This document shows, in pieces, positions 176 to 14,048 of a stretch of 60,936 nucleotides of DNA (within the stretch, counting starts at the first letter, position 1; each line of letters starts with the position of its first letter). The translations under genes and the position numbers were made by a program. The notes under the pieces are model-generated. The model did not search any database. It saw nothing but the letters and a program-made list of their open reading frames with translations, and had not been told where the DNA came from. Source of the stretch: Desulfosporosinus sp. FKB. GTDB lineage: Bacteria; Bacillota; Desulfitobacteriia; Desulfitobacteriales; Desulfitobacteriaceae. The stretch spans positions 1-60,936 of the forward strand of contig NZ_NADJ01000024.1 of assembly GCF_002196705.1 (NCBI RefSeq), given 5' to 3'.

Positions 176-2056
176 TCAGATACAGTAATATACTTCTTTT
201 CCGGGCAGTTTGATGTTCGGAATCCAAATCTGCCTGCTATTCCATCCCTTATCTTTGTTTCCGGTGATTTTATACATTGTAAGTACAGCCTCATCTTTAA
301 TAGAATCACCCAAAGCACGATCGGTCGGCGAAAGCAATGTTCCTGTACCTTTACCTATATCCCTGTTGCGCCGCACAATTAGTCTGCCTTGAGCGGAGGG
401 ATTTTCAGTCCTGATAGTTTGTATAAATCCCTTGAAGTCCTCTGGCTCCCAGTCATCAGACTCTGAGATAATGTTTTCAAGAATTTCCTCAAACAGCCGG
501 AGGTTAACGGAATAGGTATCTTCTCCGAATCGTTCAAGAATCCCATCCAATGTACCGATATCCTTGTTTTCAGGGTAAAACGGGAAGTAGTTAACTCCGC
601 CTGTAAATGTTTTAACAACCCCCTCATCAAGTACATTTTTTCTAGTTGGGCGGAGTTTTTCGGGATAGTGAATATTCACTTCTTCCGGGCATCCTTTTTC
701 AATTTGAGAAATTATACTGTTGTTTGCAGCATTAATTTCCGCAAACAGCTTATAAAGCACCGGCGGAATGAAAACCCTCATTAATCCTAAGTCACGGTCA
801 TATCCGAACATACGAGAATGCTGCCACATTGTGTCAGCTTGCGGGCTTTTAGCAACACGGCAATAATATGTGGTTTGAAGTTTCGGAATTGTAACACCGC
901 GTCCGAGGCTGTTACCTCCGACAATGATGTTCACCCCTGACTCATATTTTACATTATCTTCGAAAGAATTTCGTGAGTTTATGACAAGTATATTTACTCC
1001 GTCAGTTTCAAGCATCAGAGTTATATTTTCCATTATCACATCAAATGGGCTGATACTCGGCTTTGTTACTGCAAGGTCATTGTAGACCGCTGTAAACGCA
1101 TCATAAACAAATGGTTCATCAATTGACTGATAAATTTCATTCAAATAATCTCCAACTTTTTCGGCAAACTTTTGATGCTGGTCGGTTTTGACACTCGGAT
1201 GTATTAAAATGTTTGAAACCGTTCCACCGTTCAAAAAAATCTCAGCAGATGAAACAAGATGGTATAGGACAGCCTTTTTAAGACCATTCTCCGCAAATTC
1301 GTCATCCTTGAGCAATTCTGTTGCTTCCTCATTATCGGTGAGAATAACATAAGGCGGACGATCATAAGGGAATAATTCATTTCCTCCAATATAGCCTTTA
1401 CCGGGCGAAAAATAGTGAGTAAAATACGGACGCCACCCGCTTTGATGTGACTGCAGGAGCAAAGCTTGAGGGGTTCCTGTAACCTGTATATAAATACTGC
1501 TCGAAGCAGTTTTTTTAATTTCCTCTAAATTTTTATTGACTGAGCTTTGTTTGTTTCTATTAATCAGCGTATTCAAACTTGCGGCATCTGCCTCATCATC
1601 CACGATAAACAATGGGTTGCCTTCGCAGAAGTGAGAAGAAGAAAAGTTATTCTTCCAGCGCTTCAAAACTTGGCTGTTTTTCTTAAGCACAATTATAGCA
1701 GGACGCTTCATATTGTTTGTAAAGAAAGAGTATTCATCAGATTCGCCGCAAACACAGAAATCAGGCAAATCCTTTCTCACACGATAAAGAGTCTGCTGTT
1801 GCAAAAGATTATTATCCGTAGTTAGAAGGACAAATAGTTTGAAGCCCTCGTCGGCGGCAGAGCAAATGAGTCCGAAGAGATGGCTGGTCTTTCCGCTTTG
1901 AACATTCCCTTCGAGTAAACTCACAACGTGATCTTTGTATGAAAATGTCGCAATGTAAGCCGGAGTAATCTTGTCAACAGTATCCCTTACTGCTTCAGCA
2001 AGCGCAGGATTCCCGCTCTCCGACAAATGGTTGAGATAATTATCTACGTAACTCAT
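176..2056 (-). CDS. Z1-domain ATPase/helicase-like protein of a restriction-type operon
   Basis: The 626-residue protein has a P-loop near residues 50-57 (GNVQSGKT), a DEAD-like acidic motif FIVDDEAD near residue 150, and the segment GGNSLGRGVTIPK that typifies Z1-domain proteins, a superfamily-2-like ATPase group seen beside DNA methyltransferases and nucleases. Its ATG overlaps the stop of the upstream PLD nuclease by one base, so the two are translationally coupled. It is the last gene of the four-gene operon 4520-176. By analogy it probably supplies ATP-dependent translocation or remodelling for the nuclease, but its biochemistry is not shown by sequence. Z1 assignment is strong; the operon's anti-phage role is inferred. 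Confidence 0.8.
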   Translation of the reverse strand: MSYVDNYLNHLSESGNPALAEAVRDTVDKITPAYIATFSYKDHVVSLLEGNVQSGKTSHLFGLICSAADEGFKLFVLLTTDNNLLQQQTLYRVRKDLPDFCVCGESDEYSFFTNNMKRPAIIVLKKNSQVLKRWKNNFSSSHFCEGNPLFIVDDEADAASLNTLINRNKQSSVNKNLEEIKKTASSSIYIQVTGTPQALLLQSHQSGWRPYFTHYFSPGKGYIGGNELFPYDRPPYVILTDNEEATELLKDDEFAENGLKKAVLYHLVSSAEIFLNGGTVSNILIHPSVKTDQHQKFAEKVGDYLNEIYQSIDEPFVYDAFTAVYNDLAVTKPSISPFDVIMENITLMLETDGVNILVINSRNSFEDNVKYESGVNIIVGGNSLGRGVTIPKLQTTYYCRVAKSPQADTMWQHSRMFGYDRDLGLMRVFIPPVLYKLFAEINAANNSIISQIEKGCPEEVNIHYPEKLRPTRKNVLDEGVVKTFTGGVNYFPFYPENKDIGTLDGILERFGEDTYSVNLRLFEEILENIISESDDWEPEDFKGFIQTIRTENPSAQGRLIVRRNRDIGKGTGTLLSPTDRALGDSIKDEAVLTMYKITGNKDKGWNSRQIWIPNIKLPGKEVYYCI

Positions 2057-3141
2057 TAATGATTCACCCCAAAATCAAGATACCATGAATTTCCCGAACC
2101 CATTTTTGTGAGAGAAAAGTTATCCCTTCCATATTGCTGAAATGTTTCGGGGGTAACGGGTTGTCCAACTTCAAGCACTCCTGCATTTTCTAAACGGCCT
2201 TTTATCCATTTGCCGAGTATTTTCAAATCATCTTCCGAACGGAAATTTTTGCTGTAATCCCCACTGACTTTACAGGAGAATTTCCATCCGTCGTCTGTTA
2301 TAACGTCAAATACTGCTCCCGGTGTTTCTTTCTGCGGATATCCTGCCAAGGATGTTACGATGCTCGGAACAATTAATTCCACTTCGTACCAATGCCGAGG
2401 CTGAATCACTCCGGTCCGTGTCACCAATCTTCCTTTGCCAAAAAAGACATTAAGATTGCTTTTTTCAGGAACTCTTCCGTCTTTAACAAGCGGGATTACG
2501 AAGCGAGTATCCGTTAACGAACTGACACAGTCGGCTAATCGATCATGAGGAATCTTCTCAACATGCTCATGATTTTCTAATAGAAGATTATTTTGTCTGA
2601 AATCGCTTATTTCGCAATCTGCAAGGTTGTCTGTAGCTTTCACGGAGAGTTCTTCAATGAAGCCGCGCATTTTTTTTGCATACTCCGGCTCGCGAAAGAG
2701 CGAAGAAGCTTCGTAAGTCCGGCTCCCGCTCTCAACAATACTGCTCAGGTTATTAGAGCCTATTATTCCTGCAAATGCACCGCTTGAGTCTGAGTAACAA
2801 TACAGTTTTCCGTGAAATTTAAATGGCGTAACTAAGCGTACTTCCCCTCGTCCTTCTCCCCGCAAATAATCATTCAAATCACTAGCCGCGTTGTATTCAA
2901 GCTTAGTAAATTTGTCCCAACGGTGCATTCCAATAAGCAAATTAAGCGTTTCAATGTTTGAGTTATAAGCTACAGTCTGTTTAAGTTCAGCCAATGAATC
3001 TGCAGTTATGTAACCGACAGCAATATCCATCCGTGTTGCTTCGGGAATAAGCGAATAAAATGTGTCGGCAAATGTATGATATGCTGTATTAAGAGGCTTG
3101 TAATTGGAAAAAAGAAATTCCATAGAGGTATCCTCCGTCAA
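2056..3141 (-). CDS. NgoFVII-type restriction endonuclease, phospholipase-D fold
   Basis: This 361-residue protein carries one PLD/HKD-type active site: FHGKLYCY (His and Lys near residues 109-111) followed by the GIIGSNNLSS strand with the conserved Gly-Ser-Asn. PLD nucleases with a single motif normally dimerise to complete the site, as in the BfiI/NgoFVII restriction enzymes. The C-terminal half has no motif I recognise and may be the DNA-reading domain. It overlaps the methyltransferase upstream (ATGA) and the Z1 gene downstream, so nuclease, methylase and ATPase are made together. Recognition sequence cannot be deduced. Confidence 0.8.
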   Translation of the reverse strand: MTEDTSMEFLFSNYKPLNTAYHTFADTFYSLIPEATRMDIAVGYITADSLAELKQTVAYNSNIETLNLLIGMHRWDKFTKLEYNAASDLNDYLRGEGRGEVRLVTPFKFHGKLYCYSDSSGAFAGIIGSNNLSSIVESGSRTYEASSLFREPEYAKKMRGFIEELSVKATDNLADCEISDFRQNNLLLENHEHVEKIPHDRLADCVSSLTDTRFVIPLVKDGRVPEKSNLNVFFGKGRLVTRTGVIQPRHWYEVELIVPSIVTSLAGYPQKETPGAVFDVITDDGWKFSCKVSGDYSKNFRSEDDLKILGKWIKGRLENAGVLEVGQPVTPETFQQYGRDNFSLTKMGSGNSWYLDFGVNH

Positions 3142-4247
3142 TTCATCTCTGAGGTTACATAATCCAAACGCTCTTTCACTGTCATTTTTGACAGCTTATC
3201 AAAAATATCATTTAAATCAATATGTTGATACTCGCCAGTAAACAATGGCAATAATCTGCGTGCCGCGGCACGTACTCCTTCCGGCGGTACGGCATTACCG
3301 ATTTGTCTCCGGACTTCAGTGATATTTCCGATGAATTCGAAATCATCCGGGAAGGATTGGAGCCTAGCGCGTTCTCGATTGGTCAGTGCCCGTGGTTCGG
3401 GATAATGATATCCCCATGTACCTCCGCCTCCAGCAGCAATAATTGTTTTAGCAGGTTCGCTCCGATTGATTCTTCTGTATACATGGCTTATCATGCCTTT
3501 AACATATAGTGGATCATCTTTAGGGATATCTGTAAAATTACCTCCTTCAGGTATACGTTCAAGCATTTTCCTTGTTTTCGGAAGAGAATTGATAGGCTCA
3601 TTATTAAATTGAACTTTTTCAACTCCTTCAAGAGCCTTGCCTGCCGTAACATACGGATGTGCCCGCCCTTCTCCATGAGAAGGAAGCGGATGGATGAAAT
3701 CAAATCCCGTGTCTTTGCGCACACCGACGATTAACAGTCTCTCACGGAACTGCGGTACGCCGTAATCAGCAAAATTGTAGAGATGAGGCTTTACAACATA
3801 GCCTGGTTCTATGGATTCAAAATCCTTTATAATTGTCTCAATTGCCTTTCTCTTGTTAGCGGTCAGCAGACCTTTAACATTCTCCGCGACAAAGGCTTTA
3901 GGCTTTTTAGCATCAACAAATTCAAGGAAATGCCTGTATAGTCCTCCGCGCTTGCCATTCAGCCCCGGCTGTTTCCATATTACTGAGAAGTCCTGGCACG
4001 GGAAACCGCCGAGCACGATGTCACACTCAGGGATAGATTTATCCTTATATGGATTGATTTTTGTAATATCTTCAAGTCTTATTACATCCCCGAAGTATTT
4101 TTTGAATGATGCTACAGCCCATTCGGAGAAATCGTTCGCCCAAATAGTCGTGTATCCTTCAAGATGGAAGCCTAAGTCAAGACCACCACAGCCCGAGAAT
4201 ACCGATAGGATTTTCGGGGAAACGGGTTTCTTCTCATTGTCATTCAT
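3138..4247 (-). CDS. DNA (cytosine-5-)-methyltransferase
   Basis: C5-methyltransferase motifs appear in order: I (FSGCGGLDLGF), IV (GGFPCQDFS with the catalytic Cys), VI (ENVKGL), VIII (QFRERLLIVG) and X (RQIGNAVPP). At about 369 residues it is the usual size for a type II modification enzyme. I chose ATG 4247 because AGGGAG sits 9 nt upstream; an in-frame TTG at 4253 is closer to that site. It presumably protects host DNA from the PLD nuclease whose start codon overlaps its stop. The target-recognition region lies between motifs VIII and IX, and its specificity is not readable from sequence. Confidence 0.9.
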   Translation of the reverse strand: MNDNEKKPVSPKILSVFSGCGGLDLGFHLEGYTTIWANDFSEWAVASFKKYFGDVIRLEDITKINPYKDKSIPECDIVLGGFPCQDFSVIWKQPGLNGKRGGLYRHFLEFVDAKKPKAFVAENVKGLLTANKRKAIETIIKDFESIEPGYVVKPHLYNFADYGVPQFRERLLIVGVRKDTGFDFIHPLPSHGEGRAHPYVTAGKALEGVEKVQFNNEPINSLPKTRKMLERIPEGGNFTDIPKDDPLYVKGMISHVYRRINRSEPAKTIIAAGGGGTWGYHYPEPRALTNRERARLQSFPDDFEFIGNITEVRRQIGNAVPPEGVRAAARRLLPLFTGEYQHIDLNDIFDKLSKMTVKERLDYVTSEMN

Positions 4248-4286
4248 TGCCAAAACTCCCTAACTAAATAAATTTTATTCTGCTTC

Positions 4287-4520
4287 TTATTCTGCTTCAC
4301 ATTTGCTAAGTATTAAGAGTTCATTGACATCGCATTTGAACAGACAACATAATCTCAGCATGGTCTCGTAATCAATACGGGTAGCCTTATCATTATAAAG
4401 GCTTGAAATAGTATTCCTTGATAATCCAGTTTTTTCATGAACGTCCTTGATTGAATATCTATACTTTCCCATTAAAGTTGAAAGATTGCTTTTAAGACGC
4501 AAAGATTCGTTCGCGCTCAT
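4287..4520 (-). CDS. Cro/CI-type helix-turn-helix regulator of the restriction operon
   Basis: A 77-residue single-domain HTH protein (YSIKDVHEKTGLSRNTISSLYNDK is the helix-turn-helix region, near residues 20-43). ATG 4520 is preferred because GGAGTG lies upstream and the longer upstream reading adds 22 non-conserved residues. It sits just before the methyltransferase on the same strand, the normal position of a controller (C) protein that delays nuclease expression when a restriction system enters a new host. That role is inferred from position. Confidence 0.75.
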   Translation of the reverse strand: MSANESLRLKSNLSTLMGKYRYSIKDVHEKTGLSRNTISSLYNDKATRIDYETMLRLCCLFKCDVNELLILSKCEAE

Positions 4521-4675
4521 GTTTAGGCCACACTCCTTAATAAACCACATCCTGATTATTGTAACAAGGATATTTAGCATGGTCAATAGGATAGTTGCCG
4601 CAAATTGTTATTTTTGTTATTTAACATAAAACTTAAAGCATAAAACTTAGGCGCATCAAACACAAATAAAGCCAC

Positions 4676-4703: not shown

Positions 4704-4770
4704 TCATTTTTTAAGGAGTTTTCATATATTAACCTGTCAATTCTGCAAGTGACATTGAGGATTTTATTTT

Positions 4771-4821
4771 TAATAGCTATTTATCTTCAAGCAGGAACAG
4801 CTTGTTGGCCGTTCCTGCCTT
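4771..4821. repeat. Left 51-bp direct repeat flanking the ubiquitin-like operon
   Basis: This stretch matches 8250-8300 in 47 of 51 positions, same orientation. It contains the hairpin GCAGGAAC...GTTCCTGC. It immediately precedes a decayed recombinase 3' end, and a weaker version of the same tail follows the intact recombinase near 8862-8900. The repeat pair brackets 3.4 kb holding the ubiquitin-like operon and its regulator. Confidence 0.75.
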
Positions 4822-4824
4822 GAT

Positions 4825-5040
4825 TTAATCATAGTATGAAACCCGCTGATTTACCACGATTCCGGATTTGAATTGGATCTCTATCAGATCGTCCTTGACA
4901 GCCTTGATGCTTTGCTCCTACCAGGTCATTGTCAAGCTTCCAAACCTCGTAGGTAGTTTTCCTCAGGTAGGAATCCATATCATTAATCCTTTGAGGAAAA
5001 TTGCGGCCAGTTTTACTTCTGTACCAGTTTCAGTTCTATT
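4825..5040 (-). pseudogene. Decayed C-terminal fragment of a large serine recombinase
   Basis: Read on the minus strand, this DNA encodes an out-of-frame match to the last 60 or so residues of the intact recombinase at 8905-10563. The matching pieces include DLIEIQFKSGIV and NQRVSYYD ending in TAA, and an N-terminal part resembling NFPQRINDMDSYLRKTTYEV. A short deletion after DNDLV breaks the frame. Homology fades beyond about 5040. It is a scar of an earlier copy of the element's recombinase. Confidence 0.8.
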
Positions 5041-5091: not shown

Positions 5092-5475
5092 TTAGTGAGA
5101 TCTAAATATATTTTTCATCCAATCAATAAAGCCTTTCGATTTCGAACTGCCTCCGATATGTTTTTTCACTTCCTCTTTATCATTTCTTATTACTTTATTC
5201 ATTTGATTATTAGTGATCTGGCCTGCCCATACCACATTATCATTAGTAATCCAGTAATGTGACTTACACCCATGGCTCCAGTTTCCAATCGAAGGATAAA
5301 GAGATACCGTTTCGCCATCATAGGTTAACTTCCATCTTGCCGGTGATAAAGATGTTACAATATCCGCTCCGCATCCACAGGGGCATTTATGCTTCGCAAC
5401 ATCGTATTCAATGGAAATATAAAGTATATCTTCTTCAATTTGTGATGGTATATATTCAACGAATTTATGTCTCAT
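5092..5475 (-). CDS. DUF6527-like Cys/His protein of the ubiquitin-like operon
   Basis: A 127-residue protein, counted from ATG 5475, with a dense conserved patch: KCPCGCG (Cys31, 33, 35), then SLYPSIGNW, then GCKSHYW (Cys70, His73). The spacing suggests a zinc site. The pattern matches DUF6527 as I remember it, a family found beside ThiF/E1-like proteins. ATG 5475 is preferred over 5496 because GAGGAA lies 9 nt upstream and it overlaps the E1 stop by 11 nt, as in coupled operons. Possible roles are a ligase-like adaptor or a peptidase-like removing enzyme; sequence alone does not decide. Confidence 0.75.
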   Translation of the reverse strand: MRHKFVEYIPSQIEEDILYISIEYDVAKHKCPCGCGADIVTSLSPARWKLTYDGETVSLYPSIGNWSHGCKSHYWITNDNVVWAGQITNNQMNKVIRNDKEEVKKHIGGSSKSKGFIDWMKNIFRSH

Positions 5476-6631
5476 TTTTAATTTCCTCTTCATCAATTAT
5501 AAAAGTTGAATTATAAAAAATATCCTCTGTTAAGTAAAAACCGTTCAACTTCTTCCAAGCTATAACACCCATGATTGCATTCAAAGCATTTAATTCTGAA
5601 ATCTGAATATTTTGAGAATAAATATCTTCGCCTGTTGCTTTTTCAGTAGAAATCTTATTTAGGTAACCGCAATTTTCTGGTGTTATAAGCGTTTTCCTTA
5701 TAGATCCCCGTAATGAATTATTAACAACACTTATTCCAATACCCAAATCCACGAACGGAATTTTGGAGGCCATGAGATGTTCAATTATTACCCTTTTAGC
5801 CTCCGAATTATCAATAGCTACAAACACAAAATCATGCCCATCCAGAAGAGCTACATTCGAATCATCAATAAATACATCATGGTCTATAATACCGTCTCGA
5901 AACTTCTCATATTTCTCCTTGAAATAAGTGACTTTGCTTGGCTTTTTTTCTAGCTCATCCAAAGTCATAGTGCCAGGAATCCTGAAAGCGTTATGATTAA
6001 GCATGTGGTCTCCATCAAATAATGATATTTGCTTAACCGGGGTTTTGCTGACAAAATCCAATACAAAAGAACCTGTCCCTCCCAAGCCTACTATAGCTAG
6101 CTTTTGATCTTTTAATCTCTCTGATATATTAGACAACCCTGCTCTGGCTGTAAAAGTATCAGGATATTTAAAAACACTGGAATCATTATAGGATTCATAT
6201 TCAAAATTTTGTGCAGAAACACTTTGGTCAATAGATCTTGCAGGTGCAGATAATAATTCAATATACCTTGTCATCTTTGTATAGAAGTCAGGATAGCTTC
6301 CATTCTGCGGTTTTGAAGAGAAGTAATATGATCCAATAATATCTGCAGTCAAGGTATGCTGTTGAGCACTATTCACGAAAGAATTAATTTCCGTGCCAAA
6401 TTGATTACTGGGATGCTCTCCCATAAATCTTACGGTATGATCCTGAGGAGGTACAGTTTTTTCCCCCGATAAAGTCAACGGGCAGTAAATGGCGCCAAAT
6501 AGAATCTTTTTATCTTTATTTACATAAGGTATCCCTTTAATCACTAAATTCCCGCTAACTATGGAAATATTGTACCCTTCATCCTTAAGCCTTCTCAAGT
6601 CGTCATTAAGATCTATTAGTTGAGTCGACAT
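5465..6631 (-). CDS. E1-like activating enzyme: DUF6791-type N-terminus fused to ThiF domain
   Basis: The C-terminal half (about 170-388) is a ThiF/E1 adenylation domain: AIVGLGGTGSFV is the nucleotide-binding loop, followed by LFDGDHML and FVFVAIDNSEAKR. The N-terminal 150 residues contain IKGIPYVN, PPQDHTVRFMGEHPSN and a YxKxTRY segment typical of DUF6791, which may be an E2-like or substrate-binding fold. The protein has only two cysteines, Cys50 in the N-terminal part and Cys321 (ENCG) in the E1 part, so any thioester chemistry must use these. It overlaps the UBL gene by 26 nt and the DUF6527 gene by 11 nt. Confidence 0.85.
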   Translation of the reverse strand: MSTQLIDLNDDLRRLKDEGYNISIVSGNLVIKGIPYVNKDKKILFGAIYCPLTLSGEKTVPPQDHTVRFMGEHPSNQFGTEINSFVNSAQQHTLTADIIGSYYFSSKPQNGSYPDFYTKMTRYIELLSAPARSIDQSVSAQNFEYESYNDSSVFKYPDTFTARAGLSNISERLKDQKLAIVGLGGTGSFVLDFVSKTPVKQISLFDGDHMLNHNAFRIPGTMTLDELEKKPSKVTYFKEKYEKFRDGIIDHDVFIDDSNVALLDGHDFVFVAIDNSEAKRVIIEHLMASKIPFVDLGIGISVVNNSLRGSIRKTLITPENCGYLNKISTEKATGEDIYSQNIQISELNALNAIMGVIAWKKLNGFYLTEDIFYNSTFIIDEEEIKNET

Positions 6632-6851
6632 TTATTCTCATCCCATCTTTCATTTTAATTTGGTCACCTAAAGAATATGATATTTTATGTTTATCCCCAT
6701 CATCATTTTTCCTGGTTGATACCATAGTATAAGATTTCTGTGAATCATCATAACTTCCAAAGGCAAGCGTAATTACCTCCTGGAATGAATAGCTTCGCTT
6801 TTCAACTTCTACCGGCTGACCATTAATTATTACCGTTATTACATTGCTCAT
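6606..6851 (-). CDS. Single-domain ubiquitin-like protein (multiubiquitin family)
   Basis: An 81-residue protein with beta-grasp character: VTVIINGQPVEVEKRSYSFQ, a YTMVSTRK strand, then MKDGMRINVDSTNRS. It resembles one repeat of the multiubiquitin family (PF14452), in which several copies often occur in tandem; here there is one. The C-terminus does not end in Gly-Gly, so conjugation, if it occurs, would need trimming or another residue. It is the first gene of the operon transcribed leftward from the operator region at 6.9 kb. Confidence 0.75.
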   Translation of the reverse strand: MSNVITVIINGQPVEVEKRSYSFQEVITLAFGSYDDSQKSYTMVSTRKNDDGDKHKISYSLGDQIKMKDGMRINVDSTNRS

Positions 6852-6899
6852 TATCGCTAACCTCCTTAAAATTGTTTATATCATATTGGCAATTTTTAT

Positions 6900-6963
6900 T
6901 ATAACAATTGTTATAGTAAGCCGTCAATAACATTAGATAATTATTTTTATAACATTTGTTAAA
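6900..6963. promoter_or_regulatory. Paired palindromic operators between UBL operon and XRE regulator
   Basis: Site 1 (6900-6915) is a perfect 16-bp palindrome TATAACAATTGTTATA. Site 2 (6948-6963), TATAACATTTGTTAAA, matches it at 14 of 16 positions. Their centres are 48 bp apart in the divergent promoter region, which suits a dimeric XRE repressor controlling both directions. Confidence 0.7.
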
Positions 6964-7032
6964 AATAATTGTAAAAGATGTTTTCCTCATGTTATTATAA
7001 ATTTGAAAAACATATTGTAAGGAGGCATTGTT

Positions 7033-8109
7033 GTGTCCGTATCTGAACGAATTCTAAAAAAACGCGAACAGTTGGGGTTAAGCCAAACTGAACTTGCGAA
7101 AAGGGCTGGATTGCAACCACCCGCAATAAGTCAATACGAATCAGGATTAAGAAGTCCTTCATATGAAGCGCTACTTAAACTTTCCAACGCATTAAATGTT
7201 ACTACTGATTATTTGATTTCAGGGAAAGAAGTAAGCGAGAATGTTATAAACGATCAAACTATAAGCTTATTATTAAAGATTGCTCAAGGCTTATCGGTGC
7301 AAGACAAAGATAAGCTTCTTGAGTACGCAGTTTTTCTTTCTGCTGATTATCCTAGGAATATTCCAATGCCTATTGAATCGGACTTTGCCGAATGGGTTCT
7401 GAGGAATCACTCGAATGGCACTCTTCCAATTGACGTACACCAAATCGCAGATAAATTAAATATTTTAATCTACGAAGACGAACTGGATGAAGAAGGGGAA
7501 GGAATACTTTTTAACGGATCTCAAAAAATTATTGTGTTGAACTCAAGAATAAAAAACAGTCAAAGAAAAAAATTTACTACAGCTATATTGATAGGGCATG
7601 CGGTGATTCCTTGGCATCTAAAACAAAAATATTATGTAAGGAAAAGTGGTTCATCTACTTTACTTACAGAAGATATTCAGGAAATGGAAGCTCAAGATTT
7701 CGCTGCTAAACTAATTATGCCTCAAGTTCATCTAAATAAAGACTTCATCAAAACAAGAGCAAGCATAGAAAGTTTAAAGCAGCTTGCTCTAGAAAAATAC
7801 GATGTTTCACTCTTTGCATTGGTAAATAGGTTGGTAGAATATGCTAAAGACAAATACGCCGTTATTCAATCTGAAAACGGGGGGATCATTAAGACGTATC
7901 CTGGCAATAGGCCATTGAATCCAACGATAGATCTATTAAGCATAACAGCCACGTTTTTCGATAATCCGAGCAGCACAGAGGAGATACGTCAAGGAGATGT
8001 CCCAGCAAAATACTGGTTTGCAGATGCACAAGCTGATGAAGTGGTACATGAAGAATGCATATATAATCCCGAATATGGGAAAGTATTAACACTTATAATC
8101 AGAAACTAA
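7033..8109 (+). CDS. XRE regulator fused to an ImmA/IrrE-like domain with lost HExxH motif
   Basis: Residues 5-62 form an XRE helix-turn-helix (LSQTELAKRAGLQPPAISQY). Residues 110-235 match the ImmA/IrrE metalloprotease fold, including EAQDFAAKLIMP. The zinc-protease signature normally reads AHELGH; here it is AILIGH (184-189), so the first metal-binding His and the catalytic Glu are gone while GHxxIPWH remains. It may act as a ligand-sensing repressor rather than a protease. GTG 7033 follows AAGGAGG at good spacing. It is divergent from the UBL operon and shares its operator region. Confidence 0.85.
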   Translation: MSVSERILKKREQLGLSQTELAKRAGLQPPAISQYESGLRSPSYEALLKLSNALNVTTDYLISGKEVSENVINDQTISLLLKIAQGLSVQDKDKLLEYAVFLSADYPRNIPMPIESDFAEWVLRNHSNGTLPIDVHQIADKLNILIYEDELDEEGEGILFNGSQKIIVLNSRIKNSQRKKFTTAILIGHAVIPWHLKQKYYVRKSGSSTLLTEDIQEMEAQDFAAKLIMPQVHLNKDFIKTRASIESLKQLALEKYDVSLFALVNRLVEYAKDKYAVIQSENGGIIKTYPGNRPLNPTIDLLSITATFFDNPSSTEEIRQGDVPAKYWFADAQADEVVHEECIYNPEYGKVLTLIIRN

Positions 8110-8200
8110 GCCGTTTTATTTTTATCAACTAAATCGTAAGAATCTATTGCTAATATTTTTAAAGACATCAAATTACCACCGTAGTGAAAATGCTGCAAAT

Positions 8201-8253
8201 ATTAAGAATAAAGCTCTCAGTTTTTTGTGAAATCTGAGAGCTTTATTCTTAAT
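8201..8253. terminator. Perfect 20-bp-stem terminator after the XRE/ImmA-like gene
   Basis: Positions 8201-8220 are the exact reverse complement of 8234-8253, with a 13-nt loop starting with six T. It can end transcription of the regulator on the plus strand and shield it from leftward transcription from the recombinase operon. Confidence 0.8.
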
Positions 8254-8300
8254 AGCTATTTATCTTCAGGCAGGAACATCTTATTGGCTGTTCCTGCCTT
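8250..8300. repeat. Right 51-bp direct repeat flanking the ubiquitin-like operon
   Basis: Partner of 4771-4821 (47 of 51 identical). It contains the same hairpin arms, and a few bases resembling the recombinase stop region (AATCAAAGTATGA) follow it, after which homology stops at the DUF4314 gene. Confidence 0.75.
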
Positions 8301-8347
8301 GTGTTAATCAAAGTATGAGAACCGCCAACTCATCACCTATTCTCCCC

Positions 8348-8836
8348 TCATTCCATTCTCATTCCGAATTGCTCGTCCACGTCATTTGATTGCTCCGACT
8401 GATCCGCCTCAGTGAAATTGACGTACTCACCGATGATATTCAGCGCTTCCCCGTAACTGTCGGAAGCAGTGATCCTCTGATACATTTGGTTAGCCTGCTC
8501 CCGCATGCCTGCCACTTTTAATGTGCGTGAAGCAATCCCCATCAAATTGAAGATGTTTCCGTTGGAGCCGATGAGCGGAGCATCCGGCTTCTCAGTCCGT
8601 GTCTGCACTGGCTTTGGTTGTGAAATAGCGGAAAAGCTGTCCTCACCGGGAACAAGAGCAAGGGTTCTGCCATTGTCCCAGGTCATTTGAAGCTGACCAA
8701 TGTCATCTACAAAATCCACTGTCCCTGTCAATCCTGAAGGCATATCCAGTTCTCCGGACATTGCAGTTAATCGAATGTGGGTTCCTTTAGGATACATTTC
8801 TTTAAGCCGTTCAACCTTATTTCGTTCATTTAGCAT
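8348..8836 (-). CDS. DUF4314 protein of the integrative element
   Basis: A 162-residue protein whose first 65 residues (IRLTAMSGELDMPSGLTGTV, MTWDNGRTLALVPGED) fit DUF4314, a small SH3-like domain found in conjugative and integrative elements of Firmicutes. The remainder is hydrophilic with no motif I recognise. It lies downstream of the recombinase trio, at the end of that transcription unit. Its function is unknown. Confidence 0.75.
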   Translation of the reverse strand: MLNERNKVERLKEMYPKGTHIRLTAMSGELDMPSGLTGTVDFVDDIGQLQMTWDNGRTLALVPGEDSFSAISQPKPVQTRTEKPDAPLIGSNGNIFNLMGIASRTLKVAGMREQANQMYQRITASDSYGEALNIIGEYVNFTEADQSEQSNDVDEQFGMRME

Positions 8837-8904
8837 GTTCTATTCCCTCCTGTGTTTTTTAATAAAAGAACAGGGATGACCTTTTAGCCGTTCCTGCCTT
8901 GTGT

Positions 8905-10563
8905 TCAATCAAAGTATGAAACCCGCTGATTCATCACGATTCCGGATTTGAATTGGATTTCTATTAGATCGTCCTTGACGGCCTTGATGCTTTGCAGCAG
9001 CCTCCTTACCAGGTCGTTGTCAAACTCCCTGACCTCGCAGGTGGTTTTCTTCAGGCATGCATCCATATCGCCAAGCCTCTGCTGAAAATTCTCCGCCATT
9101 TTCTGCTCCCGCACAAGTTCCAGCTTTTTCTGCTTAAGGTCGTTGATCTGCTCCGCGATTCTCTTATATCTCTCGTCAAAATCCTCTTTGATAGAGCCTT
9201 GCTTGGCGTTTTCCTCTATCAGGGCCAGCATCTCGCCCTGCAGCTTTTCGATCTGCCCGTCTAACTCGGTGGTCACATTTTTAGTGGAGTAGCTGCCGAT
9301 AACTCGTATTACGTTCTCGCGGAAGGCACCGACAAACTCGCCGCGGTTTTCTACGACGCTGTTAATGGCAGTCATTATCGCTTCATGCAGGATATCCTCT
9401 TTAAACGTAGGGGAGTGCTTGCAGTTCTTGGTTCCGTTCTTCAGACGGTTCTCACACCGCCACACAGCGCTTTTCTGACCGTATTTAGACCATACCTGCC
9501 TGCGGTATGGCTGACCGCATTCCTTGCATACCATGATGTCAGTCAGTGCAAATTTGGAGCTGTATTTGCTTTTCTCCTTCTCTTGCTTTGCCCTTCGGGC
9601 TGCCGCAGTTTTACTAAGGCTTGCCCGCCTCGCTTTTTCCTCCTGCACCTGATAATAAAGCTCCTTGGGGATAATGGCTTCATGGTCATCCTCTATGTAA
9701 TACTGGGGGACGATGCCTTTGTTCTTCACCCGCTTTTTGGTGAGAAAATCTATGGTATAGGTTTTCTGCTGGAGGACGTCACCCATGTATTTTTCATTGC
9801 TCAGCATCTTATCGATGACGCCGGGACACCACTTTGTCAGACCTGTGACGGTGGTGATCCCTTCTGATTCTAAAATCTTAGTGATCTGTATGATACTGCT
9901 CCCTTCAAGGTAAAGGCGGAAAATGCGTCTGACCAGCTCCGCTTCCTCCGGTACGATGACCAACTCACCGTTTTTATCCTTGGTGTAGCCTAAAAACTTA
10001 TTGTGGTTGACCGAGACGATGCCGTTCTCAAACCGTCTGACCAATCCCCACCGGGTGTTCTCACTTAAGTTCCGGCTTTCCTCCTGCGCCTGGCTGCTCA
10101 GGATGGTTATTAAAAGCTCGCCGGTTCCCTCCAGCGTATTCACGCCTTCTTTTTCGAAGAACACAGCGACGTTCTTTTCCTTGAGCTTACGGATGTTCTG
10201 CAGGCTGTCCACCGTATTTCTGGCGAACCGGCTGACCGACTTGGTGATGACCATGTCGATTTTTCCTGCCATGCAGTCCTCAATCATGGCGTTGAAGTCA
10301 TCGCGCTTTTTGGTGTTTGTGGCGCTTTTACCGTCATCTGCGTAGATACCAGCGAGTTTCCAGTTGGGATTGCTCTTTATTTTTTCGGTATAATAGGAAA
10401 CCTGGGCTTCGTAGCTGGTTTCCTGCTGTTCCAGCGTGGTGCTGACGCGGCAGTATGCCGCAACCCGCAGGGCTTTAAACTGAGGCTTTATACTCCTGTC
10501 ATACTCCGGCTTGGAGGGTATAAGAGATATGCTTTTCTTTTTTGCTGTCGCTGTCTGCATCAT
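8905..10563 (-). CDS. Large serine recombinase
   Basis: A 552-residue large serine integrase. The catalytic resolvase domain spans about 30-180, with AAYCRVS placing the nucleophile at Ser41 and the helper-Arg segment SRFARNT. A Recombinase domain follows, then a zinc ribbon (CKECGQPYRRQ...CENR) and a C-terminal coiled coil rich in Glu/Lys. It is 19 bp downstream of a catalytic-domain-less paralogue and shares an operon with a second full recombinase. Such trios are typical of clostridial integrative elements and would integrate and excise the element. A decayed copy of its 3' end lies at 4825-5040. Confidence 0.95.
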   Translation of the reverse strand: MMQTATAKKKSISLIPSKPEYDRSIKPQFKALRVAAYCRVSTTLEQQETSYEAQVSYYTEKIKSNPNWKLAGIYADDGKSATNTKKRDDFNAMIEDCMAGKIDMVITKSVSRFARNTVDSLQNIRKLKEKNVAVFFEKEGVNTLEGTGELLITILSSQAQEESRNLSENTRWGLVRRFENGIVSVNHNKFLGYTKDKNGELVIVPEEAELVRRIFRLYLEGSSIIQITKILESEGITTVTGLTKWCPGVIDKMLSNEKYMGDVLQQKTYTIDFLTKKRVKNKGIVPQYYIEDDHEAIIPKELYYQVQEEKARRASLSKTAAARRAKQEKEKSKYSSKFALTDIMVCKECGQPYRRQVWSKYGQKSAVWRCENRLKNGTKNCKHSPTFKEDILHEAIMTAINSVVENRGEFVGAFRENVIRVIGSYSTKNVTTELDGQIEKLQGEMLALIEENAKQGSIKEDFDERYKRIAEQINDLKQKKLELVREQKMAENFQQRLGDMDACLKKTTCEVREFDNDLVRRLLQSIKAVKDDLIEIQFKSGIVMNQRVSYFD

Positions 10564-10581
10564 GATTTCTCCTTCCTTGGT

Positions 10582-11481
10582 TTAGTATCCGGCTTCCATG
10601 GTTAATCCGTTTATAAATTCAAACACCAGCCGATGGTCAGCGTATACAGTGATTTGCTTTATCACTGCCAGAAACAGTTCCTCATCGAATTCTGTGAGAA
10701 GCTGTCTGCCTGAAAACGCCTGCTTCATCTTTTCGGTGTTATATTCGGCGTCATCTATTTTTGCCGTTTTGTAAAGGGCTTGTGCCCGCTTAAAAATAAG
10801 AGCCGGAAGTTCATTGGACGAATACCGCCCTTCTGCTTCCAGCTCCTTAATGCGCTGATCCAACATATTAAATTCAGGGTTATTGGGAATTGGCTCTTTC
10901 TTAGACTTCCGGTCGAGAATTTCTATCCGTGCCAGAATCCTATTGACTGCCTCGAGGAAGGCTTTTTCAATCTGTTCATCCGTGAGGAAACCGCATCGGC
11001 AGTACACTCGGTTCTTGTAAATATACCTCTTGCACTTCCAGAAGGATTTCTCAGACGTTCTGCCGCAGTGCTCGATGTATTTTCGGTAAACCTCGCCGCA
11101 TTCTCCGCATCGGAGCTTTCCGGTGAATAGATACTGGCTGCTTGCACTGTTTGGCTGGATGCTTCGCCCCAGATGATCACAGCGTTCTTTGCGGCGTTTC
11201 TGCACCTGCTCAAACATCTCGGCGTCAATCATCGGCGGATAGAATTCATCCCCAAGGTATTTGACATTCTCCAGTATCTTGCCGATTGAGCCGTGATTCC
11301 AGGAGACTTTATTGTTGGCATTCGGAAATCCCATTTCGGTCAGCCGCTTGGCAAGAGCAGAGGTGGAGGTACCGGATAGATAATCTGCAAATATCTTTTT
11401 CACAACAGCGGTTTTGGGTTCATCAAGCTGTATTTTTCCTTCTGCCAGCTTATATCCGATGGGCATGTGCCTTTGCATCAT
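10582..11481 (-). CDS. Serine-recombinase paralogue lacking the catalytic domain
   Basis: The 299-residue protein starts directly in the Recombinase DNA-binding domain (GYKLAEGKIQLDEPKT), then has a zinc ribbon (CGECGEVYRKY...CRCG) and a C-terminal helical region. The resolvase-fold catalytic domain with its Ser is absent. It overlaps the upstream recombinase gene by 32 nt and has its own start, so it looks like a maintained accessory subunit rather than debris. It may pair with the full-length recombinases in a hetero-complex or act as a directionality factor. Confidence 0.85.
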   Translation of the reverse strand: MMQRHMPIGYKLAEGKIQLDEPKTAVVKKIFADYLSGTSTSALAKRLTEMGFPNANNKVSWNHGSIGKILENVKYLGDEFYPPMIDAEMFEQVQKRRKERCDHLGRSIQPNSASSQYLFTGKLRCGECGEVYRKYIEHCGRTSEKSFWKCKRYIYKNRVYCRCGFLTDEQIEKAFLEAVNRILARIEILDRKSKKEPIPNNPEFNMLDQRIKELEAEGRYSSNELPALIFKRAQALYKTAKIDDAEYNTEKMKQAFSGRQLLTEFDEELFLAVIKQITVYADHRLVFEFINGLTMEAGY

Positions 11482-13081
11482 CCTCTATCGCCTCCTTCCT
11501 GCAGGGTTCGGACAGCTCCAGCCTGTTGATGAGTCGGAAGGTAATTTGTCCGTTTTCCTGTACGATTACCTTGTCTATAGACTGTAAAAATAAATCCTCA
11601 CGGTATTCTTCAATAACGTGAGGATTGTTTCTGATAAGCTCCAGCATTTGTTCTGTTCCCGCAATCTCTATATCGAAGCCGTTATTGTCCAGAAGCTGGC
11701 TCCTTTTCTTTTTCACAGCGGCAAGCTCTATAGTCAGGGCATTTTGCCGCTCTATAAATACCGCAGGGTCGATATACCCTTTCGATACAACTCTGCTGAG
11801 TATATGACCCTGCTCTGTCAGCTCCATGATTCTATTGCTGCATTCCCCGATTTCCTGCTCCTGATGTTCATCCATTCGGAGCTTTTTAAGCGTATCCAGC
11901 AGGGGAGTGAGGATTTCGTCATAATTGCTTACGAGCTTATTCCACATCACGGTGAAAGCCCATTGAACGTCATCCTCCCGGATTGCCTTCTGGCTGCATT
12001 TGCTGTTGTCCAAAATATGCTGGCGACAGCACCATTGGACCTTCTCATAGGGCTTGCCGATGTAGATTTTCTGCCTCCGCAGAATACCCCTGCATTCGCC
12101 GCAGAGGATTCTGCTGCTGAAGGCATATCGGCTTTGGTATTTCTGCAAATCGTCCATCCCCATCTGCATTCTACGGTATACAAAGATTTCCTTTACTGCC
12201 TCCGCCTGTTCATGTGAGATAATGGGTTCATGGTTGTCCTCAACCAGATACTGAGGAAGCTGACCTTTGTTCCTCTTTTTCTTAAAGGGCAGCACCTCTG
12301 TGGTCATGGTTTTCTGATATAGTAGATTTCCTATGTATATGGGGTTTAAAAGCATTTCCTTTATCACGCCATCGTTCCACTTTTCAGCCGAGCGTATTGT
12401 GGGGATTCCTTCCTCGGACAAATCCTTGGCGATTGCATAAGTGCCCTTTCCATTTAAGTACTCACGGAAAATGCGTCGGACTATAGCAGCTTCTTCCTCC
12501 TGAATTATCAGCTCGCCCTTATCATCCTTGGTATAGCCGTAGGCTGGAGTGCCGAGGATGAATGTGCCGTCTTGAAAACGTTTAACTGCTGCCCATTTAT
12601 TGTTGGTGGAAATGCTTTCGGATTCGCCCTGCGCCAAAGAGCTTAAAATGGTCAGCATCAGCTCGCTTTTCTCTGACAGACTGTTGATATGCTCCTTTTC
12701 AAAATAGACGGCGACGCCAAGTCCCTTCAAACGGCGAATCGCCTCAATGCTGTCCACCGTGTTTCTGGCAAAGCGAGTTAAGGATTTCGTGATGATCATA
12801 TCAATTTTGCCGTCCTCGCAGTCCTTCAGCATCCTCAAGAAGTCATCTCTTTTTGCAAGCTTTGTTCCGCTTCTTGCTTCATCAGCGTAAATTCCGGCAA
12901 ACTGCCAGTTCTCTTGATTTTCAATCAAGGCGGTGTAGTATTCAAGCTGTGCGGTAAAGGAATTCTGCTGCTCACGGGAGTCAGTGCTTACCCGGCAATA
13001 GGCGCAAACCCGCTTTTTCGGCTGTAATTGCCGGGCGACCTGCTGCTTGACAGGGTCAATTTTTGTTATCTTTTTTGCCAT
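11450..13081 (-). CDS. Large serine recombinase (second full-length)
   Basis: Starting at ATG 13081 (AAAGGAG 8 nt upstream), the protein has 543 residues. CAYCRVS places the nucleophile at Ser32, and SLTRFARNT carries the conserved arginines. The Recombinase domain (PAYGYTKDDKGELIIQEEEA) and zinc ribbon (CGECRGILRRQ...CCRQH) follow, then a coiled coil. It is the first of three consecutive recombinase genes. It is similar in plan to the recombinase at 8905-10563 but clearly diverged, implying an old duplication. Confidence 0.95.
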   Translation of the reverse strand: MAKKITKIDPVKQQVARQLQPKKRVCAYCRVSTDSREQQNSFTAQLEYYTALIENQENWQFAGIYADEARSGTKLAKRDDFLRMLKDCEDGKIDMIITKSLTRFARNTVDSIEAIRRLKGLGVAVYFEKEHINSLSEKSELMLTILSSLAQGESESISTNNKWAAVKRFQDGTFILGTPAYGYTKDDKGELIIQEEEAAIVRRIFREYLNGKGTYAIAKDLSEEGIPTIRSAEKWNDGVIKEMLLNPIYIGNLLYQKTMTTEVLPFKKKRNKGQLPQYLVEDNHEPIISHEQAEAVKEIFVYRRMQMGMDDLQKYQSRYAFSSRILCGECRGILRRQKIYIGKPYEKVQWCCRQHILDNSKCSQKAIREDDVQWAFTVMWNKLVSNYDEILTPLLDTLKKLRMDEHQEQEIGECSNRIMELTEQGHILSRVVSKGYIDPAVFIERQNALTIELAAVKKKRSQLLDNNGFDIEIAGTEQMLELIRNNPHVIEEYREDLFLQSIDKVIVQENGQITFRLINRLELSEPCRKEAIEDDAKAHAHRI

Positions 13082-13162
13082 GGCTTTCTCTCCTTTCTCT
13101 CGTTTTTGGCCTCCTGTCAGCAACACACAATACCACACAAGCTTTGAGATATCCAGGTGTTT

Positions 13163-13324
13163 TTACGCATATACCTTGGAAAGCTCCGGCGTGAAGGTTT
13201 GACGGTTCAATTCATCGATTTTTTTGTACTCGGCAGGGGAGATAAGGCCATTTCGGAGCATGATATCCAACAGCTTTATCGCTACCTTATACTTCACTTC
13301 GTTGGCTGCCTGATTTTTTGACAT
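13163..13324 (-). CDS. Small SHOCT-like helical protein
   Basis: From ATG 13324 (AGGAGG upstream) it encodes 53 residues. The pattern LLDIMLRNGLISPAEYKKIDELNRQ is a short helix-turn-helix hairpin like SHOCT-type domains. It sits between the resolvase-like gene and the recombinase trio on the same strand. Comparable small proteins occur at this spot in Firmicute integrative elements; function unknown. Confidence 0.7.
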   Translation of the reverse strand: MSKNQAANEVKYKVAIKLLDIMLRNGLISPAEYKKIDELNRQTFTPELSKVYA

Positions 13325-13340
13325 ATTGCTCGCCCTCCTT

Positions 13341-14048
13341 TCACTGCAGAGAAAGGAAAGGGCTTTGACAATCCAACTGGATTTGACCCTCCAACGGCGA
13401 ATAAAGCTCCACGCCCAGCTGTTCCAGCCCTCGTAAAAACTCCAGCAATTTTGCCGTATCCCGCCCCAGGCGGTCAACCTTCTTTACCAGCAATACATCC
13501 ATTCTGCCATCACCGGCAGCCTTCATGATCTCTGCAAGGCCGTGGCGGTCAGAATCCAGACCGCTTCCTATATCCTCAGATTCGCCAACGATCACAAATC
13601 CTATCTGCTCGGCGTAATCCATGAGCTCCCTTTTCTGCCCTTTCAATACACCGTGGGTATCCTCCGGTGCATCGATTCTGCAGTAAATCCATGCTCTTTT
13701 CTGGCTTTCCCGGCTCAAAAAATCAAGAGCTTCATCAATACTCACAATCGGAATACTGAGAGGTTCCTTTTCGCCCAGCTGCATGGGTACCAGCTCTTTC
13801 GTGATCTCCTGCAGAAGCTTCTGATCCGGGCAGCGGTTAATGAATTCGCCGAAGGTATCCAGAACTAGCCTATCCATCGTATCTGTTAAAACCATCTTGT
13901 CAGCATGCTCTTTTTTCAGCATGATAAAGCTTGCAATGCTGGACGGGGATTTCTCAAAATAGAATTCCTGATATTCTCCGTCAAGCCCATACACATATCC
14001 GATAATTAGATCCTTCTTCAGTAATTGAGACAATGCTTCCTTTTCCAT
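13341..14048 (-). CDS. Resolvase-like protein with N-terminal extra domain and no catalytic Ser
   Basis: The 235-residue protein has an unrecognised N-terminal domain (1-110) and a resolvase-type C-terminal domain (117-225; GLAEIMKAAGDGRMDVLLVKK, VDRLGRD). At the nucleophile position, where recombinases read YCRVS, it reads YCRID (Asp126). Cleavage by the normal mechanism should therefore be impossible. It may be a regulator or structural partner of the element's recombinases. It starts the downstream block of the element's leftward genes. Confidence 0.75.
   Translation of the reverse strand: MEKEALSQLLKKDLIIGYVYGLDGEYQEFYFEKSPSSIASFIMLKKEHADKMVLTDTMDRLVLDTFGEFINRCPDQKLLQEITKELVPMQLGEKEPLSIPIVSIDEALDFLSRESQKRAWIYCRIDAPEDTHGVLKGQKRELMDYAEQIGFVIVGESEDIGSGLDSDRHGLAEIMKAAGDGRMDVLLVKKVDRLGRDTAKLLEFLRGLEQLGVELYSPLEGQIQLDCQSPFLSLQ

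Follow-up and report, generated by a model that had tools for sequence, protein, structure and literature searches.

A compact operon for a serine-ended ubiquitin-like protein and an E1-like enzyme without conserved cysteines in Desulfosporosinus

Three overlapping genes and the tail of the ubiquitin-like protein

We analyzed a 60,936-nt contig of Desulfosporosinus sp. FKB (NZ_NADJ01000024.1, assembly GCF_002196705.1), hereafter the window, in which positions 5,092-6,851 carry on the minus strand (6851->5092) an operon for a ubiquitin-like (UBL) protein, a DUF6791-ThiF protein resembling ubiquitin-activating enzymes (E1), and a DUF6527 protein. The open reading frames of that strand bear out the three overlapping genes described in an initial annotation, and Pfam returned every domain it had named, with Multi_ubiq found once, DUF6791 together with ThiF, and DUF6527. 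The operon type is real and conserved, with a gene content predicted in 2006, and is not categorically new; we give about even chances to its being a compact, cysteine-independent variant of Bub/Iyer-6e conjugation that lacks the JAB component.

The UBL gene (6606..6851) codes for 81 residues with a single match to Multi_ubiq (PF14452; 27.1 bits, cut-off 24.5). Modifiers of the Bub/6e polyUbl kind are expected to hold two or more UBL repeats, and this protein has one domain, which is not disqualifying because the part of Iyer et al. (2006, PMC1779556) available to us gives one to three repeats for operon 6e and notes a solo domain in the member Amac. A phmmer search of the PDB with the UBL returned nothing meaningful. 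The E1-like gene (5465..6631) codes for 388 residues and matches DUF6791 (1.7e-50), ThiF (3.3e-11) and the NCBIfam model PRK06153.1-4 (451.8 bits, cut-off 352). The last gene (5092..5475; 127 residues) matches DUF6527 (PF20137, 2.7e-25), and its homologues place the start at the ATG at 5475 rather than at the TTG at 5496.

For comparison we used 30 DUF6791-type loci, chosen irrespective of E2 (ubiquitin-conjugating enzyme) or JAB content. The 22 DUF6791-type plasmid loci were selected for diversity among the 115 plasmid records that the E1 matched. Counts of E1 proteins refer to 29 sequences (25 aligned proteins plus L029, L033, L034 and L044) and counts of UBLs to 28, with L034 outside the latter as its contig starts only at the E1; L001, L004 and L030-L032 duplicate other loci, and the near-identical pairs window/L003 and L022/L024 were kept. 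Outside the E1 and UBL counts stand the partial L035 and seven JAB-type sister loci (L016, L037-L042), whose gene order is UBL, Prok-E2_E (separate or fused), JAB-E1 and DUF6527. The proteins of L016, on an Escherichia coli plasmid, match the solved Citrobacter proteins BubA, BubB and BubCD in the same gene order with DUF6527, and the solved Bub pathway is therefore the JAB-type of this family.

The window UBL ends in ...INVDSTNRS and thus lacks a terminal Gly-Gly, as had been annotated. Serine closes all 28 UBLs and Thr stands at -4 in 26 of them, giving a tail motif of [FI]-[NDR]-[VA]-x-x-T-x-[RKQE]-S. The 3' end of the UBL gene and the 5' end of the E1 gene share 26 nt (6606..6631), the E1 ATG falling within the [ND]-V codons of the tail. 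In 25 of the 28 loci, exactly 26 nt lead from the E1 start to the end of the UBL stop codon, with 23 nt in two and 41 nt in one; the 23-nt cases (L023 and L028) reflect a TTG start picked by our script, where the RefSeq start gives 41. Across the 25 loci with the 26-nt overlap, the codon of the terminal serine (6609..6611 in the window) is TCA, TCT, TCG or TCC in 11, 6, 6 and 2 cases, respectively, and variation of its wobble base switches E1 residue 8 among His, Leu, Arg and Pro. With the wobble base free and E1 residue 8 variable, the constraint lies on the UBL frame, and the C-terminal serine is, as far as the codons tell, selected in that frame. Weighing against this is the restriction of all 25 codons to TCN, without a single AGY, so that the E1 frame may account for part of the conservation.

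To our knowledge, every ubiquitin-like modifier characterized by experiment ends in Gly when conjugated. The UBLs of JAB-type loci L037 and L042, where a separate E2 gene follows, end in TTTEG, which has the same T-x-x-end spacing as the DUF6791-type tail with Gly replacing Ser. Judged by its tail, the DUF6791-type UBL would need no maturation, and this would explain the missing JAB.

The E1-like protein and its DUF6791 domain

The E1 identity holds up in an AlphaFold model, the ThiF part of which best matches Citrobacter BubCD (Z 21.4, root mean square deviation 3.1 over 205 residues), and BubCD is also the top match by sequence profile (2e-11). The runner-up structures score closely (ThiF 21.0, SUMO E1 20.7 and MccB 19.7), and PADLOC gives weak E1-E2 matches, the best at 1.3e-8. 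The ThiF adenylation domain spans residues 170-297 (5741..6124, minus strand) and contains the GLGGTG motif; its adenylation residues G182, G184, G185, G187, D206, D208 and R217 are invariant in all 29 E1 proteins, and H65, S105, K119, Y123, Q343 and N348 are among the further residues invariant in this set.

Canonical ubiquitin pathways run on cysteine thioesters. The window E1 does hold two cysteines, Cys50 and Cys321, as had been annotated, and the alignment shows Cys50 in 8 and Cys321 in 2 of the 29 proteins; the best cysteine column, position 75, reaches 17/29 with Ser in the window protein, and the Rhodococcus member (L027) has no cysteine at all. No cysteine is conserved across the set. 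The earlier expectation that the chemistry differs from that of ubiquitin thus stands as regards independence of conserved cysteines, and fails in its choice of catalytic candidates: conservation rules out Cys50 and Cys321 as a catalytic pair, and mutants of these positions would test the wrong residues. The conserved E1 and E2 cysteines by which type II cyclic-oligonucleotide-based antiphage signaling systems (CBASS) and Bil are recognized were likewise absent from the 29 E1 proteins.

Tyr338 in the ThiF part (codon 5618..5620) occurs in 28 of the 29 proteins, the exception, L014, carrying a Tyr beside the column. A deposited BubCD complex bears the substitution Y370F (PDB titles), which suggests that Tyr370 of BubCD is catalytic. 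Tyr338 of the DUF6791-type proteins precedes a conserved Asn that is aligned in both types. In L016 a Tyr370, which we take to be numbered as in the PDB titles, lies within a motif read in 7/7 JAB-type proteins. Tyr338 is on these grounds a candidate counterpart of BubCD Tyr370. Several points weigh against the pairing and leave it uncertain: the catalytic role of Tyr370 is drawn indirectly from a title, the shared numbering is an assumption, and MAFFT pairs Tyr338 with Tyr362 of L016, not with Tyr370. In addition, the E1 model has a mean predicted local distance difference test (pLDDT) score of 71.6, and residues 331-342, including Tyr338, fall below 50.

That the operon has no separate E2 gene, as annotated, was borne out by E2 profiles, which found no match within the window's first 20 kb, and by Prok-E2_E, which found none in the whole genome; as a control, Prok-E2_E was found in the two of five records expected to hold it and in none of three whole DUF6791-type plasmids. 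The claimed absence of a JAB gene stood for the first 20 kb, where JAB profiles gave no match, and needs qualifying genome-wide, where one Prok-JAB match of 22.2 bits, under the cut-off of 25, lies on another contig. None of the 30 DUF6791-type loci gave a profile match to JAB or Prok-E2_E (the BubB-like E2). Both profiles were built from the same JAB-type loci they then match; Pfam Prok-JAB is above its cut-off in six of the seven JAB-type E1 proteins, with L038 below at 17.2 bits. It tells against a simple contrast between the two types that L037-L042 were picked via an E2 match, so that the presence of E2 in the seven JAB-type loci is partly the result of selection.

The DUF6791 domain (E1 residues 10-159; 6155..6604, minus strand) is the part proposed to be an E2-like module. 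In the model, two short helices lead into four strands; then come a long loop containing short strands, a strand with Ser105 at its end, and a long helix. This is the order of an E2 up to the crossover helix. An hhalign comparison of DUF6791 (27 sequences, leaving out L024 and L029) with Prok-E2_E (9 sequences) scored 22.2, more than any of 100 column shuffles (maximum 16.9) and more than seven control pairs (10.7-17.5), including reversed E2 (10.7), JAB (12.2), ThiF (16.0) and DUF6527 (17.5). DUF6791 lacks the conserved active-site cysteine of an E2. Its Ser105 (FSxKP; codon 6317..6319), our proposed hydroxyl nucleophile, is present in 29/29, and a forced full alignment with seven E2 sequences, of low confidence, places Ser105 on the Ser of WSRH. 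The evidence on the other side is that the hhalign probability is 7.5% with confident alignment limited to DUF6791 residues 8-36, that the full alignment with nine E2 sequences does not pair Ser105 with the WSRH serine, and that the DUF6791 profile retrieved from the PDB only three weak, irrelevant matches (E 0.13-0.47). The PDB search with the E1 model was uninformative on E2 chains since its matches were filled by the ThiF domain. On this slight support we lean toward regarding DUF6791 as an E2-like domain, and the earlier suggestion that it fills a missing role is plausible in this form, with DUF6791 as the carrier of E2 function.

The DUF6527 product is a putative metal-binding protein reading C-x3-C-x34-C-x2-H. 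In the alignment of 37 loci of both operon types, PS and C-x2-H are present in 37/37 and C-x3-C in 36/37, the exception being L026, where the gene is interrupted and an IS256 transposase is annotated. The protein is modeled as eight strands plus a C-terminal helix (pLDDT 74.5), with a best PDB Z of 3.2 and nothing at E 0.001 by Foldseek. The accessible text of Iyer et al. (PMC1779556) gives a slightly different metal signature, C-x3-C-x(35-38)-H-x2-C, and suggests an adaptor role for the metal-binding partner in the 6e family.

Family relations, a proposed pathway and its alternatives

The window operon belongs to the row 6e polyUbl family, in the form in which domain X replaces JAB. As given in the part of Iyer et al. 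(2006, PMC1779556) available to us, operon 6e combines the UBL repeats with an E1, an E2/RWD domain that looks inactive, and a metal-binding protein bearing paired Cys/His; the E1 is joined to JAB or, in a subset of these operons, to an uncharacterized N-terminal domain (domain X). The window has in common with the domain X subset the UBL, the E1 with such a domain in place of JAB, and the metal-binding protein, whereas the terminal serine, the 26-nt overlap, the lack of a conserved cysteine, and Ser105 and Tyr338 are not described in that part. The triplet is not unique: it proved to be widespread, its gene content having been described in 2006 as this 6e variant. Conserved UBL-E1-DUF6527 triplets, for which the initial annotation had suggested a search, turned up in five phyla, and recurrence with the same overlap in Bacillota, Bacteroidota, Cyanobacteriota, Actinomycetota and Pseudomonadota makes the arrangement more than chance.

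The Citrobacter Bub pathway (PDB 9ea4, 9ea5, 9ea8, 9eae and 9eav), with BubA as UBL, BubB as E2 and BubCD as JAB-E1, resembles the window system in its Multi_ubiq UBL, in a ThiF E1 of the same fold, in the DUF6527 partner gene seen in the sister locus L016, and in the CapH/CapP-kind regulators reported for Bub operons. Unlike it, the window operon has no JAB and no BubB-type E2, carries DUF6791 on the E1 instead, and codes for one UBL domain rather than several, with a terminal serine that probably needs no processing. Type II CBASS Cap2, an E1-E2 fusion, and Bil are similar in having an E1-type enzyme and a mobile, defense-like context, but these systems use catalytic cysteines and a JAB partner, whereas the window-type E1 has no conserved cysteine. 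With MccB, ThiF, MoeB and UBA5 the protein shares the ThiF fold and nucleotide-binding residues, and differs in its N-terminal domain, in a UBL ending in Ser, and in the lack of a sulfur-transfer gene in the operon.

In the pathway that we propose, a helix-turn-helix (HTH) repressor sitting on a palindrome over the promoter would keep the operon low. The UBL would be translated in mature form, its stop codon exposing the observed T-x-[RKQE]-Ser tail, so that no maturation protease would be needed, and the ThiF domain, judged by its fold and invariant motif residues, would use ATP to adenylate the carboxylate of the C-terminal serine. The UBL would then pass to hydroxyls, not thiols, namely Tyr338 of the ThiF part, as the presumed counterpart of BubCD Tyr370, and Ser105 of DUF6791, forming oxyester intermediates, with DUF6791 acting as an E2-like domain fused to the E1. 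The DUF6527 metal-binding protein may select or position targets in the manner of a ubiquitin ligase (E3), as Iyer et al. would have it. Since the operon lacks a JAB, the tag would either stay on for good or be taken off by other enzymes, and the system likely serves in protein tagging induced by stress or directed against phage. Taken in full, as a cysteine-free ligase in which one protein serves as E1 and E2 via Tyr/Ser hydroxyls, with a Ser-activated, born-mature modifier and no built-in removal, this scheme is tentative, a possibility we put well short of even.

The same invariant residues can be read differently. Ser105, His65 and Lys119, found in all 29 E1 proteins, could make DUF6791 a hydrolase that replaces JAB, to whose place in the sister proteins its own position corresponds, and that cleaves or recycles the UBL while the E1 hands it directly to targets; a hydrolase role for domain X is tentatively suggested in the accessible text of Iyer et al. 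(2006, PMC1779556). We judge this unlikely, given that the UBL already ends at the conserved serine without a maturation cleavage, that the operon would be left without an E2, Prok-E2_E also being missing, and that hhalign scored 12.2 for the JAB region against 22.2 for Prok-E2_E. Activation of the UBL C terminus for a purpose other than conjugation, as an MccB-like nucleotide adduct or a ThiF-like sulfur carrier, would fit the presence of MccB (Z 19.7) and ThiF (Z 21.0) among the top structural matches. MccB, moreover, modifies a peptide with a non-Gly C terminus. Such a use is nonetheless quite doubtful: the best match is BubCD, of a pathway described as conjugating protein in a title cited in the available part of PMC13373217, the operon has no sulfur-transfer gene, and the C-terminal Gly-Gly that marks the UBLs of sulfur-carrier systems (ThiS/ThiF and MoaD/MoeB) gives way to Ser in 28/28. 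Ordinary thioester chemistry through a poorly conserved cysteine (75, 50 or 321) has in its favor the 17/29 at position 75, but the serine there in the window and the cysteine-free L027 come close to refuting it, and we consider it highly improbable.

One further reading concerns the neighboring regulator. Divergent from the operon lies a gene for an HTH + ImmA/CapP-like protein (7033..8109, plus strand; Pfam HTH_3 and Peptidase_M78; PADLOC capP 1.8e-36 and capH 1.3e-10), and among the 20 annotated plasmid loci of the DUF6791 type, 10 have an ImmA-like or HTH-peptidase gene alongside. This is in line with the accessible portions of two papers, in which 70% of PF14452 multiubiquitin genes adjoin COG2856 toxin-antitoxin-like loci (PMC4963859) and 219 of 544 Bub operons are linked to CapW or CapH+CapP (PMC13373217). 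The toxin-antitoxin figure, together with the plasmid and recombinase context of the triplet, would suit a unit that mainly serves maintenance, the HTH/ImmA gene and the UBL genes stabilizing mobile DNA. To this we allow only a slim chance, since CapH+CapP pairs reportedly regulate immune operons (PMC13373217) and the window regulator has lost its HExxH motif, which reads ILIGH there and on the minus strand of L003 and is kept in the 13 other regulators compared. With this motif lost, the window protein probably does not carry out the usual cleavage of itself or a partner, and it and its L003 counterpart are likely pseudo-proteases.

Should the cysteine-independent conjugation reading be true, a widespread family with ubiquitin logic, a Ser-ended UBL and no conserved E1 cysteine would reveal what in ubiquitin chemistry is indispensable. 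Its three genes (81, 388 and 127 residues) would form a small test system for Bub-like pathways without JAB or a separate E2, with UBL Ser81 and E1 Ser105 and Tyr338 as the residues singled out. Ye et al. are said to have described, in 2026, oxyester chemistry for the Bub pathway. In the literature we searched, a scope that leaves aside Ye et al. 2026 and Gong et al. 2025, we found neither the serine terminus, the fixed overlap nor the lack of a conserved cysteine, and no paper naming DUF6527, DUF6791, PRK06153 or PF20590.

Promoter, surroundings and distribution

In the promoter region that the operon shares with the divergent regulator gene is an extended -10 promoter-like site ahead of the operon, TTGACG-18-TATAAT (6898..6927, minus strand; 11/12 matches plus TG), which is a consensus match only, 17 such sites being found against 10.5 in shuffles. 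A perfect 16-nt palindrome, TATAACAATTGTTATA (6900..6915), overlaps this site, and a second copy with one mismatch lies 48 nt away (6948-6963). Both palindrome sites are kept with small changes in L003, the E1 of which is 88% identical, and triplet and regulator together align there as one 3-kb block (window 5096-8122 with L003 4510-7536, 89%).

A defense role is suggested by the genomic context. As had been annotated, a restriction-modification operon adjoins (176..4586, minus strand; Z1 helicase, NgoFVII-type nuclease, C5 methyltransferase and HTH genes by Pfam and PADLOC), here context only, and several recombinase genes lie nearby. For Bub operons, the available part of PMC13373217 states that phage blocking has not been shown so far. 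A phage-borne origin of the system was rejected on finding no match among 50,697 phage records.

Triplet and regulator are flanked by repeats, a stretch at 4763..4981 recurring at 8242-8323 (89%, 82 nt) and 8881-9069 (84%, 190 nt), the latter copy extending to the 3' end of a serine recombinase gene. The left copy lacks the DUF4314 gene that stands between the two right-hand pieces, and the repeats may mark how the module moved. Beyond the regulator, 8348-14048 holds the DUF4314 gene and complete or fragmentary genes for serine recombinases. Among the tandem recombinase genes at 8905-14048, Pfam finds no resolvase domain in 10582-11481 and no recombinase domain in 13341-14048, so that these two look like partial copies. 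The recombinase stretch at 8907-9801 aligns close beside the block in L003, and most of the intervening 784 bp, with the DUF4314 gene, is thus absent there.

Among sampled genomes, DUF6791 turned up in 3 of 398 from the phylum and in 1 of 45 from the family, both counts including the genome of the window itself. Of 72,556 plasmid records the E1 matched 115, in 109 cases across 80% or more of its length; the low genome counts and the plasmid matches together make a patchy, mobile pattern. RefSeq already labels triplet neighbors "multiubiquitin," "ThiF" and "DUF6527." Triplets with UBLs of single-domain length (78-96 residues) occur in Cytobacillus, Micrococcus, Arthrobacter, Tritonibacter, Sagittula, Sulfitobacter, Rhodococcus, Cupriavidus and Novosphingobium, and Pfam found one Multi_ubiq stretch in each of the five of these that were scanned; other members have two or three. 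In IMG/VR, L033, L034 and L044 hold a complete DUF6791-type E1 and L035, at a contig end, only the ThiF part, while L036 is of another E1 type aligned over part of ThiF only. Three viral scans with single sequences, and another with the E2, found no relative.

The Acinetobacter johnsonii plasmid NZ_CP010358.1 carries a DUF6791-type E1 match (92918-94084) and a JAB/E2-type operon (~63.6-66.3 kb), so that the two types can share a replicon. A UvrD-helicase gene of ~1,130 residues lies directly upstream of the multi-UBL operons of L010, L012, L013 and L041 (Leptolyngbya, Acinetobacter, Klebsiella and Agrobacterium), in the first three following a small hypothetical gene, and may be part of those operons. 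UBL operons adjoin Tn7-like transposition genes in Klebsiella L013 (TnsD family) and Acinetobacter L038 (TnsE), and DarT and macro-domain genes (L007, 8482-10148) lie ~2 kb downstream of the Cytobacillus triplet. On the 143-kb viral contig of L036, a Prok-E2_E-like domain (3775-4413; 2.9e-5) near the ThiF-type E1 has FSWSH for WSRH. In the window itself, away from the operon, the stretch 17474-41558 holds genes for three heavy-metal P-type ATPases and an FTR1-type iron permease.

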